DNA of 43,517 nt from Enterococcus sp. DIV0212c (lineage in GTDB: Bacteria; Bacillota; Bacilli; Lactobacillales; Enterococcaceae), in the NCBI RefSeq assembly GCF_017377505.1, contig NZ_JAFREN010000026.1, forward strand, positions 1 to 43,517, given 5' to 3'. The translations under genes and the position numbers were made by a program. Below the pieces are notes generated by a model. The model was not told the DNA's origin. It did not search any database and saw only the letters and a list, made by a program, of their open reading frames with translations. Of the stretch, positions 24,831 through 35,336 are shown in pieces; position 1 is the stretch's first letter; the number at the start of each line of letters is the position of its first letter.

Positions 24831-25721
24831 ATGCAACTAGACATTTCAGATGAATCTTTATTAACGTATGAAGCGTTAGCAAGTTCAGTCAGATTACACA
24901 TCATTCGTTTGCTTTCAGAGAAAAAAATGAACAACAAAGAACTAGCCAAGGAATTGAATCTAAGCAGCGCAATTGTAACAATGCATATCAATAAACTAGA
25001 AGAAGCCCGTTTAATCAAAACTGAACGCGTTGGTCAGCAAAAAATTTCTAGTTTAAAAGTTGATAACATTGAAATCAGTTTTCCTGAAAAAATCTTTCAT
25101 GCTTTCGATACATATGAAACGTCGATCCCTGTTGGTCTCTACACCAACTACCAAGTAAAACCGACCTGTGGCTTGGCTACAGAAACACACCGGATCGGTA
25201 TTTTTGATGAACCTAAATACTTTATGGACCCAGAAAGAATGAATGCTAAAATTTTATGGTTTACCGAAGGTTTTGTGGAATATCAGATCACCAATTTTTT
25301 ACAACCAGAAGACACCTTGGAGATGCTGGAAATTTCTTTTGAGATTTCTTCAGAGTTTCCATTCGCCAATAACGAATGGCCTTCTGATATTACTTTTACG
25401 TTGAATGATGTTGAACTTGGGACTTGGACTAGTCCAGGAGATTTCTACGATGCTAGAGGAAAATTCACGCCTGACTGGTGGGAGGACCACCTCAATCAGT
25501 ATGGCCTGCTAAAAACGATCCGAATTACTAATCACGGGACAAATGTAGATAGCAATATCCTTTCAGAAGTCAAAATAGCAGATATCAAAAGTGAAATGGA
25601 TACATGGAAATTAAAAATAGAAGTTAAGGAAGATGCAGAAAATATGGGTGGCTGTACTTTGTTTGGTCGCGGGTTCGGTAATCACGATCAAGATATCAAA
25701 GTCAAAATGTATTATCGCTAA
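24831..25721 (+). CDS. ArsR-like winged-helix regulator with large C-terminal domain (regulator 1)
   Basis: Probable controller of module 1. From the ATG at 24831 the protein has 296 residues. The N-terminal winged helix (about 1-85) reads ALASSVRLHIIRLLSEKK, then ELAKELNLSSAIVTMHINKL, as in ArsR proteins, but without their metal-binding cysteines. The remaining 200 residues are a conserved domain (PTCGLATETHRIG, DEPKYFMDP, EFPFANNEWPSDITF, TWTSPGDF, GGCTLFG) that looks beta-rich and could be a carbohydrate-sensing beta-sandwich; I cannot name the family. The start follows AGGTGGGG and gives exactly the same length and MQL(D/E)IS start as its paralog at 34446-35336. Divergent from the module 1 operon. 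Confidence 0.82.
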   Translation: MQLDISDESLLTYEALASSVRLHIIRLLSEKKMNNKELAKELNLSSAIVTMHINKLEEARLIKTERVGQQKISSLKVDNIEISFPEKIFHAFDTYETSIPVGLYTNYQVKPTCGLATETHRIGIFDEPKYFMDPERMNAKILWFTEGFVEYQITNFLQPEDTLEMLEISFEISSEFPFANNEWPSDITFTLNDVELGTWTSPGDFYDARGKFTPDWWEDHLNQYGLLKTIRITNHGTNVDSNILSEVKIADIKSEMDTWKLKIEVKEDAENMGGCTLFGRGFGNHDQDIKVKMYYR

Positions 25722-25744
25722 AAAAGCGTTTGATTACTAAAAAA

Positions 25745-25852
25745 GTGAGTGAGACATAACTCTTCGAGTCATATCCCACTCACGTAGAATCCAGATAAAC
25801 GATGGAGCAGAAGCAAACCCGAGAAATAAGCTTCTGCACCAACCTTTTTTTT
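25745..25852. repeat. Dispersed intergenic two-hairpin repeat, copy 2, with terminator
   Basis: A full copy of the element cut at the window start. Hairpin 1 is 25745-25783 (GTGAGTGAGACAT with ATATCCCACTCAC and an inner ACTC-TTC-GAGT). On the leftward RNA its two mismatches become G-U pairs. Hairpin 2 pairs 25804-25814 (GGAGCAGAAGC) with 25830-25840 (GCTTCTGCACC) and is followed by eight Ts, so it also terminates the regulator 1 transcript. It lies in the 152-base gap between two convergent units. Confidence 0.8.
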
Positions 25853-25873
25853 AGTCAATTGATCAGGAATCTA

Positions 25874-26110
25874 TCACCAATGACCAACAGGACAGTTCTT
25901 ATCTGATAAACTAGCACGAAATTCAAAAAAACAACCGCATTTTGAACAAGTATGAGCAACTCTAAAAGGGCATGTCTCACATAATTTTATTCGTTTTTCT
26001 TTCGTTTGTTCTTCAGCCAAGTTCGTTTCAACAAGTAATTGTTCCTCAATCAACTGCTTTACGTTCAGATTTGCAGCAGATCCTTTGATTTCACAACCAA
26101 TACAACTCAT
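25874..26110 (-). CDS. Small cysteine-rich protein (DUF6171-like, probable zinc binder)
   Basis: 78 residues with a regular Cys pattern: C-I-G-C at the N terminus, CETC, then CSKCGC and a final NCPVGHW. This suggests one or two zinc sites. I recognise it, with moderate confidence, as the DUF6171 type; function is unknown. It starts 3 bases after the GH51 gene stop, so it is translated as the last gene of module 2. Cytosolic, no signal peptide. Why it ends an arabinan operon is unclear. Confidence 0.7.
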   Translation of the reverse strand: MSCIGCEIKGSAANLNVKQLIEEQLLVETNLAEEQTKEKRIKLCETCPFRVAHTCSKCGCFFEFRASLSDKNCPVGHW

Positions 26111-26113
26111 CAG

Positions 26114-27553
26114 CTATTCAACTACAAGCGTAACAACAGACATCGGTGGAACTATAGCTCTAAGTGTTGTCCCCGTTATCGATAGGTCCTCAAATATTTT
26201 AATCGCAATCGTTTCTGGGTGATCAAAATCATTGTGAGCATCCATTGTTTCTGCTGTAATATAACTTGCATCTACCAGCGTTAAATCAGTGTTTCCGTCA
26301 AAATAAAGTTCTTCTGATTCTGTTAATGAAAAATTACAGATAGAAATTGTCAATTTCTCCGCTTTTTTAGAAATTGTATAAGAGATTGATTCCTTTTCAT
26401 CTCCATAACTATCGATCAATTCTCCATCTTGATGATTTTTGTACAAATCAAACACATGATAAGTTGGTGTTTTAACCATTTGATTTCCGTCTGTTACTAA
26501 CATTGCTTGGAGTACATTGACCGTTTGTGCGATATTAGCCATGTGTACACGGTCAGCATGTTTATGGAAAATATTCAATGTGACCGCTGCAACCATTGCA
26601 TCTCTGATCGTATTTTGTTGATAAAGAAAACCTGGGTTTGTTCCTGGTTCTACTGCTAACCAAGAACCCCACTCATCTACAATCAAACCAATACGTTTTT
26701 CAGGGTCATATTTATCCATAATCGTGCTATGCTTCGTAATCAATTCATCCATTTTTTGAGCACTAGCGATTAATGACCACCATTGTTCCTCTGGAAAATT
26801 TAATGCTGGACCTTTATCTTCCCAAGCACCTGTTAAAGCATAATGATGCAAACTAATTCCGTCCATAAAAGGCGAAGCAATTTTCATTACTTGCTCCGTC
26901 CAATTGTAATCATCAATATTAGGACCGCAAGCAATTTTATAGATTTTTTCTTCACCGTATTGTCTGACATATGTTTGATAGCGACGATACAGATCCGCAT
27001 AATATTCAGGCCGCATATTTCCACCACAGCCCCAGCTTTCATTTCCTACACCGAAAAAGGCAACTTTCCAAGGCTGTTCCCGATGATTTTCTTTTCTTAA
27101 ATTGGCCATAGGTGACTCACCATCCATAGTCATATATTCGACCCATTCTTGCATTTCTTGAACGGTGCCACTCCCCACATTGCCGTTGATGTACACTTCA
27201 CAGCCTAGTTGTTCGGCCAACTCAAAAAACTCGTGTGTGCCAAAATGATTATTTTCTGTCAATCCGCCCCAATGGGTATTGACCATTTTCTTACGCGTTT
27301 TTTTTGGTCCGATACCGTCTTTCCAATGATATTCATCAGCAAAACACCCTCCTGGCCAACGTAAAACTGGTACTTGAATATTTTTTAGTGCAGCTACTAC
27401 ATCTGTTCTTATCCCATGTTTATTTGGAATTGATGAACTTTCCCCTACCCAAATCCCTTCATAAATACAGCGACCTAAATGTTCGGCAAATTGACCATAA
27501 ATATACTTGCTGATTTTAGTGCCTGATTTATTGGGTGTCATGATAATCTTCAT
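26114..27553 (-). CDS. GH51 alpha-L-arabinofuranosidase, divergent third paralog (module 2)
   Basis: A cytosolic arabinofuranosidase of 479 residues. Glu172 in [11 protein letters not shown] (acid/base) and Glu294 in VDEWGSW (nucleophile) are present. The N-terminal [17 protein letters not shown] and [13 protein letters not shown] place it in another GH51 branch from the two paralogs at 19247 and 32751, so a different linkage or substrate preference is likely. Start choice: AAAGGA is about 9 bases before the ATG at 27553; starts further upstream overlap that site. It lies between the endo-arabinanase gene and the small Cys-rich gene. Confidence 0.92.
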
Positions 27554-34244: not shown

Positions 34245-34274
34245 TTCATCACCTCATTATTTATTTACAAACAA

Positions 34275-34303
34275 ATAATAATCCATTTTGAAATCGCTGT
34301 CAA
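34275..34303 (-). promoter_or_regulatory. Module 2 operon promoter
   Basis: Read leftward: TTGACA (34298-34303), 17-base spacer, TATTAT (34275-34280). Boxes and spacing are identical to those of the module 1 promoter. The expected transcription start is about 25 bases before the GH51 start codon. Confidence 0.88.
34288..34302. promoter_or_regulatory. cre-like (CcpA) site over the module 2 promoter
   Basis: TTGAAATCGCTGTCA matches WTGNNARCGNWWWCA at 13 of 15 positions and overlaps the -35 exactly as in module 1. The CGCTGTCA half is identical in both. Confidence 0.6.
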
Positions 34304-34386
34304 CAATATTAATATTAATAATATTCATAAATAACAAACATTAAATTAACATTATTATTAATAACGAGTAATAATAAGTTTACCTG

Positions 34387-34415
34387 TTTACACATATTTC
34401 CATATATGTTAATAT
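34387..34415 (+). promoter_or_regulatory. Promoter of regulator gene 2
   Basis: TTTACA (34387-34392), 17-base spacer, TAATAT (34410-34415), extended -10 TG. It aligns with the regulator 1 promoter. The 201-base divergent gap also holds AT-rich inverted repeats such as AATATTAATATT. Confidence 0.65.
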
Positions 34416-34445
34416 ATATATAAATATAAAATGGTGGTGGTTACT

Positions 34446-35336
34446 ATGCAACTAGAGATTTCTGAAGAAGCATTACCCGTTTATGAAGCATTGGCTAGTT
34501 CTGTCCGTATCAGGATCATCAAACTACTCGCCAAACAAAAAATGAATATCAAAGAAATCGCACATGAACTCGGATTAAGTAGTGCAATCGTCACTATGCA
34601 TATAAAAAAATTAGAAGACGCTAATATCATCAAGACCGAGAAAATAGGCCAACAAAAGATTTCAAGCCTACGCGTCGATAACATTGAAATTCACTTTCCT
34701 GAAAAAATCTTTAACGCTTTTGATACTTTAGAAACAACGATTCCTGTCGGTCATTATACCAACTACTCTGTTGAACCGACCTGTGGGTTAGCAACGGCTA
34801 CTCACTTCATTGGAAAAGTAGATGAACCAAAATATTTTATGGATCCCAGCCGAATGGAAGCTCAAATTTTGTGGTTTACCAAAGGCTACTTAGAATACCA
34901 AACACCAAATTTTCTGACGTCTGACCAAAAATTAGAAATGATCGAACTTTCTATGGAAATTTCTTCTGAGTTTCCTTTTTCTAATGATAATTGGCCTTCT
35001 GACATTACCTTTTCTCTAAATGGTATCGAGCTTGGAACTTGGACCAGTCCAGGAGACTTTGCAGATATCCGGGGCAAGTATACACCGGATTGGTATCCTG
35101 ATAATCTTAATCAGTATGGCTTATTAAAAACGATCCGTATCATGAATCATGGCACTTATATGGAAGGTGAGCCTCTCTCAGATGTAAAATTAGCTGATAT
35201 CGACGAACGAACGGATACATGGCAATTACGCATCGAAGTCAAAAATGATGCTGAAAACATCGGTGGCTGTACGTTATTTGGTAAAGATTTTGGGAATTAC
35301 AATCAAGATATCAAAGTAAAAATGTACTATAGTTAA
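34446..35336 (+). CDS. ArsR-like winged-helix regulator with large C-terminal domain (regulator 2)
   Basis: Paralog of the protein at 24831-25721 and of identical length (296 residues) from the ATG at 34446, which follows GGTGGTGG. The winged helix (about 1-85: ALASSVRIRIIKLLAKQK, ELGLSSAIVTMHIKKLE) and the C-terminal domain (PTCGLATATHFIG, DEPKYFMDP, TWTSPGDF, GGCTLFGKDFG) are highly conserved. Changes concentrate in the central stretch between the DEPKYFMDP and EFPF motifs. It is divergent from module 2, so it is the likely local regulator. Activation or repression, and the ligand (arabinose or an arabino-oligosaccharide), are inferred and not shown. Confidence 0.82.
   Translation: MQLEISEEALPVYEALASSVRIRIIKLLAKQKMNIKEIAHELGLSSAIVTMHIKKLEDANIIKTEKIGQQKISSLRVDNIEIHFPEKIFNAFDTLETTIPVGHYTNYSVEPTCGLATATHFIGKVDEPKYFMDPSRMEAQILWFTKGYLEYQTPNFLTSDQKLEMIELSMEISSEFPFSNDNWPSDITFSLNGIELGTWTSPGDFADIRGKYTPDWYPDNLNQYGLLKTIRIMNHGTYMEGEPLSDVKLADIDERTDTWQLRIEVKNDAENIGGCTLFGKDFGNYNQDIKVKMYYS

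Follow-up and report, generated by a model that had tools for sequence, protein, structure and literature searches.

To what signal do two ArsR-type regulators respond when each of them faces an arabinan operon? The question is raised by a 43,517-nucleotide contig of Enterococcus sp. DIV0212c (NZ_JAFREN010000026.1, the whole of which we call the window), in which the genes for regulators A and B are each divergent from one operon with genes of glycoside hydrolase (GH) families GH51 and GH43 and an ATP-binding cassette (ABC) sugar importer, as the first-pass annotation had pointed out. That annotation also proposed a separate class of sugar-sensing regulator, and our computation supports this as probable, the class being marked by an unnamed beta-sandwich domain and a strong link to arabinofuranosidase genes. 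The architecture is real, well conserved and widespread, and its arabinan linkage is strong. What we have computed is the domain architecture, the predicted fold and its nearest solved folds, the arabinofuranosidase association, and a palindrome that recurs near both start codons. We suggest, at a probability of about two in three, that A and B are repressors of both divergent units, with a sensor like a carbohydrate-binding module (CBM) through which an imported arabinan fragment would act as inducer, and with CcpA control laid over this.

The regulators and the predicted fold of their C-terminal domain

Both open reading frames (ORFs) are present at the positions given in Table 1 and encode 296 residues each. 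The proteins are identical at 72% of 295 residues without gaps (winged helix 72%, C-terminal part 71%), in agreement with the earlier description of twins that share a winged helix and a conserved C-terminal domain. Longer in-frame ATG starts upstream would give 308 and 301 residues; the starts for 296 residues are those that align across relatives. A and B are the sole two family matches found by a search of the 3.54-Mb genome, and A is 96% identical to a homologue in NZ_ASWB01000001.1 (E. moraviensis).

An ArsR-type winged helix is present in both proteins (NCBIfam NF033788, 48.4 and 50.7 bits, under the cut-off of 55), and among the Pfam and NCBIfam matches listed up to E 1 all are confined to residues up to about 99. 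The ArsR/SmtB metalloregulators CzrA, SmtB and CadC have about 100 residues and metal sites, whereas A and B have 296 residues, and a metal-binding Cys/His cluster in a short protein was not found in them. The earlier remark that metal sites are missing is borne out, as regulator A has only Cys113 and Cys275. Cys113, in the motif PTCGLA and encoded at 25167-25169, is invariant in 42 of 42 aligned relatives and shows no apparent metal site. TrmB-type sugar regulators combine a winged helix with a C-terminal sugar sensor, as in A and B, and the fold of that sensor is not known to be shared with A and B; the Pfam TrmB scores are 12.9 and 18.0 bits, under the cut-off of 25.6, and no TrmB sensor-domain match is among the Pfam matches listed for the two proteins. 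Nor did Pfam and NCBIfam find in them the GntR winged helix with LacI-type sensor that is typical of AraR.

The C-terminal domain had been left unnamed and described as possibly a beta-sandwich. Structure prediction and a fold search gave a beta-sandwich that matches the fold of CBM6, CBM35 and CBM36 modules, and the leading rows of the VIA structural match are sugar-binding modules; Cry domain III, BcsB and GH115 are likewise among the fold matches listed, and no fold is ruled out by being missing there. The model suggests that the domain is a cytoplasmic CBM-like sugar sensor. It differs from CBM6, CBM35 and CBM36 in being joined to a winged helix, in having no evident signal peptide, in its length of about 206 residues and in having no sequence-level match to them; the A2 profile, compared with PDB sequences, matched only winged-helix regions in the best 60 of 102.

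The domain also occurs without the winged helix, in three proteins of 680-710 residues. One of them (L080:5710-7842, minus strand, 710 residues) has a lipoprotein-like start, the regulator C-terminal domain at about 98-270 and no Pfam match; two further database relatives have 680 and 706 residues. These proteins show the domain to be portable, and no more.

Distribution and neighbouring genes

Database searches at E up to 1e-3 gave 5,188 proteins for regulator A and 7,313 for its relative at locus L073 (see below); the best 120 of each were inspected, and the remainder may include matches to the winged helix only. At E up to 1e-10 there is a regulator match in 9 of 22 genomes of the genus, in 66 of 398 sampled in the class (both class searches covered 398 genomes with equal handles and are taken as one set), and in 25 of 398 in the phylum, three of these being partial (C-terminal domain only in G625, winged helix only in G528, contig end in G719). 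GH51 (PF06964) is present in 87 of the 398 class genomes, and it accompanies the regulator closely: 59 of 66 genomes with the regulator have it vs 28 of 332 without (Fisher p 1e-40, which ignores kinship). Counted by hand per genus, the figures are 16 of 23 vs 13 of 122 (p 1e-8).

With regard to the neighbours themselves, 60 regions were fetched, with 63 upstream genes of at least 120 residues, of which 53 non-redundant ones were scanned. Among the best 25 of 47 families these gave Alpha-L-AF_C 12 times, Glyco_hydro_43 12 times, SBP_bac_1 9 times and the GH2 N-terminal domain twice, with single cases of GH127, GH3, DUF2961 and aldose epimerase; CNNM, Fe-ADH and P450 are among the families that occur once and have no relation to these. 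The survey of homologue neighbourhoods that had been proposed thus gave co-occurrence with GH51 or GH43: at 51 non-redundant loci there are 18 with a GH51 relative and 18 with a GH43 relative of the window genes, 30 having one or the other and 21 neither in the fetched stretch. Of these 21, 13 were scanned, over one to three genes each, and 8 adjoin GH2, GH116, GH127 or other GH43 genes (L065, L076, L077, L083, L087, L094, L104, L116). On these gene calls, and with exceptions, we read a link to glycans for the whole family and a link to arabinan for the subfamily of the window. At another locus two members of different clades (L085:6909-7823 and 13300-14223) flank a large GH43-like ORF, in a genome (G003) with 6 family matches.

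Before counting we dropped L003-L005 (duplicate loci of L063, L064 and L072) and L080 (no winged helix); the non-redundant sets are also without L063, L064, L066, L069, L071, L072 and L074. L095, L097 and L110, where the ORF picker lost the regulator, and L008-L015, short winged-helix matches in Gammaproteobacteria, were left out. Gene calls at GC-rich loci are simple longest ORFs and may be wrong in places.

The relative at L073 is a full-length protein, 48% identical to A and 50% to B, from what we take to be Caldicellulosiruptor bescii (its 90% match is named Caldicellulosiruptor sp. F32). It is divergent from a GH51 arabinofuranosidase gene, the arrangement reported for ArbA, and by this arrangement we presume the two to correspond. 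In its passages on ArbA (also printed ArbR), PMC8579813 describes it as divergent from abfA, predicts three sites for it, reports it to be the first factor of the ArsR family in carbohydrate use, and takes it as a repressor from mapped transcription starts. ArbA as described there resembles A and B in its ArsR-family winged helix, predicted repressor role and several sites; in C. bescii, unlike here, a GntR-type AraR also acts on abfA, and those passages do not describe the C-terminal domain of ArbA. The relevant parts of PMC4428132 and PMC4855831 place ArsR-family genes, with function untested there, in arabinan/arabinose clusters of Geobacillus 56T3 and Lactobacillus rossiae, and the main text of the review PMC10766802 is without ArsR, ArbA or ArbR. 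PMC11575207, in the part concerned, takes extra ArsR genes, which may or may not belong to this class, as metal resistance. In the literature searched, with most subscription papers outside it, we found no description of a CBM-like sensor in ArsR-type sugar regulators. The architecture is partly reported already as ArbA; our additions are a predicted intracellular sensor of CBM-like fold, the operator and how widely the class occurs.

Predicted operators and promoters

A palindromic expectation-maximisation search was run on the upstream regions; one of its seeds was a dyad already seen by eye, and the identical seed was used on the controls. Two motifs led the results, the CcpA cre site and an 18-bp palindrome, aTTAAyATATATrTTAAt. 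The cre signal is the stronger (log-likelihood, LL, 174-182 vs 161) and might have been taken for the regulator operator. For the palindrome the LL is 160.7 vs at most 77.5 in 20 shuffles, and for 55 non-redundant regions 112.6 vs 71.0-87.7 in ten samples of other intergenics from the same loci. In-sample p is at most 0.05 in 40 of 65 regions. When trained on the 44 regions outside the window's order, the motif reaches that level in 7 of 11 held-out regions of the order, with p 0.01 for both window intergenics. The L073 intergenic has only one site (p 0.030 in-sample, 0.01 held out).

Within the window 6 operator matches with at most 2 mismatches lie at 4 separate places, in the two regulator intergenics; shuffles have a mean of 1.18, and 0 of 100 have 6. 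Operator A's second site is largely kept in a four-species alignment. Across the family, sites that score 8 bits or more occur at 22 of 32 divergent non-redundant loci (intergenics of 100-370 bp). At 11 of these 22 the two start codons each have a site no more than 70 bp away, where random placement would give 5.0 loci (P 0.0015). A distance of 41-43 bp between sites is only weakly significant (P = 0.028).

The cre-like TGNAANCGCTGTCA is found at 24694-24707 and 34289-34302, one on each operon promoter, and these are the only matches to the pattern in the window with at most 1 mismatch (chance mean 0.16). Promoter-like sites number 3 in region A vs 2.3 in shuffles, which is hardly above them, and 6 in region B vs 2.9.

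Table 1. Features of the two regulator loci (window coordinates)
Feature	Position	Strand	Remarks
Regulator A	24831..25721	+	ArsR-like winged helix ~1-80, then predicted CBM6/35/36-like beta-sandwich 91-296
C-terminal domain of regulator A, modelled alone	25101..25721	+	predicted local distance difference test (pLDDT) 94.7, predicted template modelling score (pTM) 0.91
Regulator B	34446..35336	+	architecture as in regulator A, 72% identical
Operon A	14463..24584	-	solute-binding protein, two permeases, DUF624, GH51, GH43, FGGY kinase (araB-like), class II aldolase-type (araD-like), araA; membership inferred from spacing and strand
Operon B	26114..34244	-	GH51, solute-binding protein, two permeases, DUF4064-like, GH43 with GH43_C, second GH51; membership inferred from spacing and strand
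Predicted operon A promoter	24680..24708	-	TTGACA-17-TATTAT, 11/12 consensus positions
Predicted operon B promoter	34275..34303	-	TTGACA-17-TATTAT, 11/12 consensus positions
Cre-like (CcpA) site A	24692..24709		overlaps operon A promoter; motif search
Cre-like (CcpA) site B	34287..34304		overlaps operon B promoter; motif search
Predicted operator A, best site	24748..24765		ATTAATGTTTATATTAAA
Predicted operator A, second site	24602..24619		operon A leader, 17 nt from solute-binding protein start codon
Weak operator-like site A	24707..24724		7.3 bits; edge of operon A -35 hexamer
Predicted operator B, best site	34345..34362		
Predicted operator B site	34396..34413		inside predicted regulator B promoter (34387-34415, 9/12)
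Weak operator-like site B	34302..34319		2 mismatches, not listed by weight matrix; edge of operon B -35 hexamer

Regulator A is divergent from the solute-binding protein gene of its GH51-containing operon and regulator B from a GH51 gene itself. The class II aldolase-type gene occupies the araD position in operon A, and the DUF4064-like gene of operon B is below the Pfam cut-off. The window has no AraR, as had been stated. A GntR-type probe gave 12 matches genome-wide, and the one GntR plus LacI-type frame that was checked (392 residues) is surrounded by GH92, GH125 and GH38 genes (L135:3312-12548) and not by ara genes; adjoining mannosidase genes, it was rejected as an AraR, in a check that did not extend to a 480-residue frame (L129) or to other regulator types.

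Elsewhere in the window, a regulator that combines a WYL domain with a DeoR-like helix-turn-helix is encoded close to where operon A ends with araA (12890-13852, minus strand). Outside the arabinose cluster there is a protein with MucBP domains that is attached to the cell wall by an LPXTG anchor (9415-11430, minus strand). A cation ATPase is encoded near regulator B (37616-40246), as it also is beside the relative at L099 (see below), possibly by coincidence.

Proposed mode of action and alternatives

In the mechanism that we infer, A and B would be one-component transcription factors. The N-terminal winged helix would dimerise and bind the palindrome, which is present more than once in each divergent intergenic, so that the operon and the regulator's own gene would both be repressed. 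In the cytoplasm the CBM-like beta-sandwich would bind an imported arabino-oligosaccharide or arabinose, on which the DNA would be released, and CcpA would act on both operon promoters through the cre site. Because the recognition helices of A and B are nearly identical in the pairwise alignment, the two probably bind the same operator.

Several results weigh against this proposal. The C-terminal domain is at most 15% identical to CBM rows and exceeds a CBM in length by about 75 residues. Its TM-scores are modest (in Foldseek, 0.40 by query and 0.61 by target for 7ay3), the first Foldseek row is a Cry toxin, and no Pfam CBM model is among the matches listed up to E 1; the CBM-like fold is also known to serve non-sugar ligands. 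GH51 is lacking in 7 of the 66 regulator genomes, and 5 of the 13 scanned loci have no glycosidase in the genes scanned (L070, L081, L099, L101, L118). When the operator motif is trained the other way round, on the 11 regions from the order of the window, only 6 of the 44 others have it; sites near the divergent gene's start alone (15 of 22 vs 12.0, P = 0.13) are not above chance, and the placement test used a matrix whose fitting data overlapped. With one mismatch allowed, the pattern shows no enrichment across the genome (12 places vs 9 for the reversed pattern), so that no wider regulon can be claimed, the scan giving none beyond the two loci. One match, at the start of an SbcC-like gene (G000:C5:34251), was taken as chance.

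A and B might instead be activators, the ligand-bound protein recruiting polymerase from positions near -42 and -83 at the operon promoter while it represses its own gene. Activation has to be considered because predicted sites lie just upstream of the operon -35, in pairs 41-43 bp apart (24707-24724 with 24748-24765, and 34302-34319 with 34345-34362), which would suit an activator. However both operon promoters match the consensus at 11 of 12 positions, sites near the divergent gene's start occur together with sites near the regulator's start, and ArbA is taken as a repressor in the passages of PMC8579813 already discussed. For these reasons we favour repression and think activation improbable. 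A role for the C-terminal domain as a module for metal, redox or protein interaction, with a reactive Cys113 and with a link to arabinan only through the operon controlled, is more doubtful still. ArsR proteins usually sense metal or redox, Cys113 is invariant, and a close relative (L099:2894-7912) faces CNNM/CorC and cation-ATPase genes, not glycosidases; because of this last neighbourhood we rate such a module slightly higher than at first, and our own proposal slightly lower. Metal sensing was nevertheless set aside, as the sequence has one conserved cysteine, no conserved Cys/His cluster and no metal site, and against it also stand the sugar-binding modules that lead the VIA rows and the way the family follows GH51, GH43, GH2, GH127 and GH116 genes.

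It is unlikely, if less so than activation, that free L-arabinose is the ligand of both, with redundant twins that cross-bind operators and do not divide substrates; this is a narrower form of our proposal and the odds of the two overlap. The near-identical recognition helices would suit it, as would two loci (L067, L071) where GH51c, an operon-A type importer and GH51a share one operon opposite a lone B-type regulator; because it faces this combined operon, one regulator seems there to cover what the window splits between two. On the other side the neighbours are oligosaccharide-type importers and hydrolases, and A departs in its sensor from at least 60% of 32 relatives (H103L, F121R, V125F, P154T, N182E, A206Y, P218E, N220H, G241S); these derived residues would possibly allow a different ligand, as in the earlier suggestion that the two copies answer to different oligosaccharides, and are no proof of one. 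In our trees B groups with homologues from E. phoeniculicola, E. faecium, Listeria, Melissococcus and other Enterococcus, its nearest rows by path beyond its own orthologues being P0008 (E. phoeniculicola) and P0025. A has a longer branch and is found in 4 mapped genomes, with B nearby every time. In the best tree the clade of B does not include A. Uniting A and B in one clade costs 11.35 log units, which the approximately unbiased test does not reject (p = 0.112), and there is neither proof nor disproof of a recent local duplication.

Whether there is a large one-component class in Bacillota in which a lectin-like CBM fold has been recruited to read plant-glycan fragments inside the cell and to control an ArsR-type DNA-binding domain allosterically, with subfamilies that track GH51, GH43, GH2, GH127 and GH116 clusters, we regard as an even question; if so, ligands would be predictable from neighbour genes. 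Many proteins annotated as ‘ArsR/SmtB family’ are probably sugar and not metal sensors, and the label invites a wrong reading. With a predicted sensor fold, an operator and target genes to hand, the class is open to direct testing, and it could yield biosensors for arabino-oligosaccharides as well as predictions of regulons in Firmicutes that live in the gut or degrade plants.

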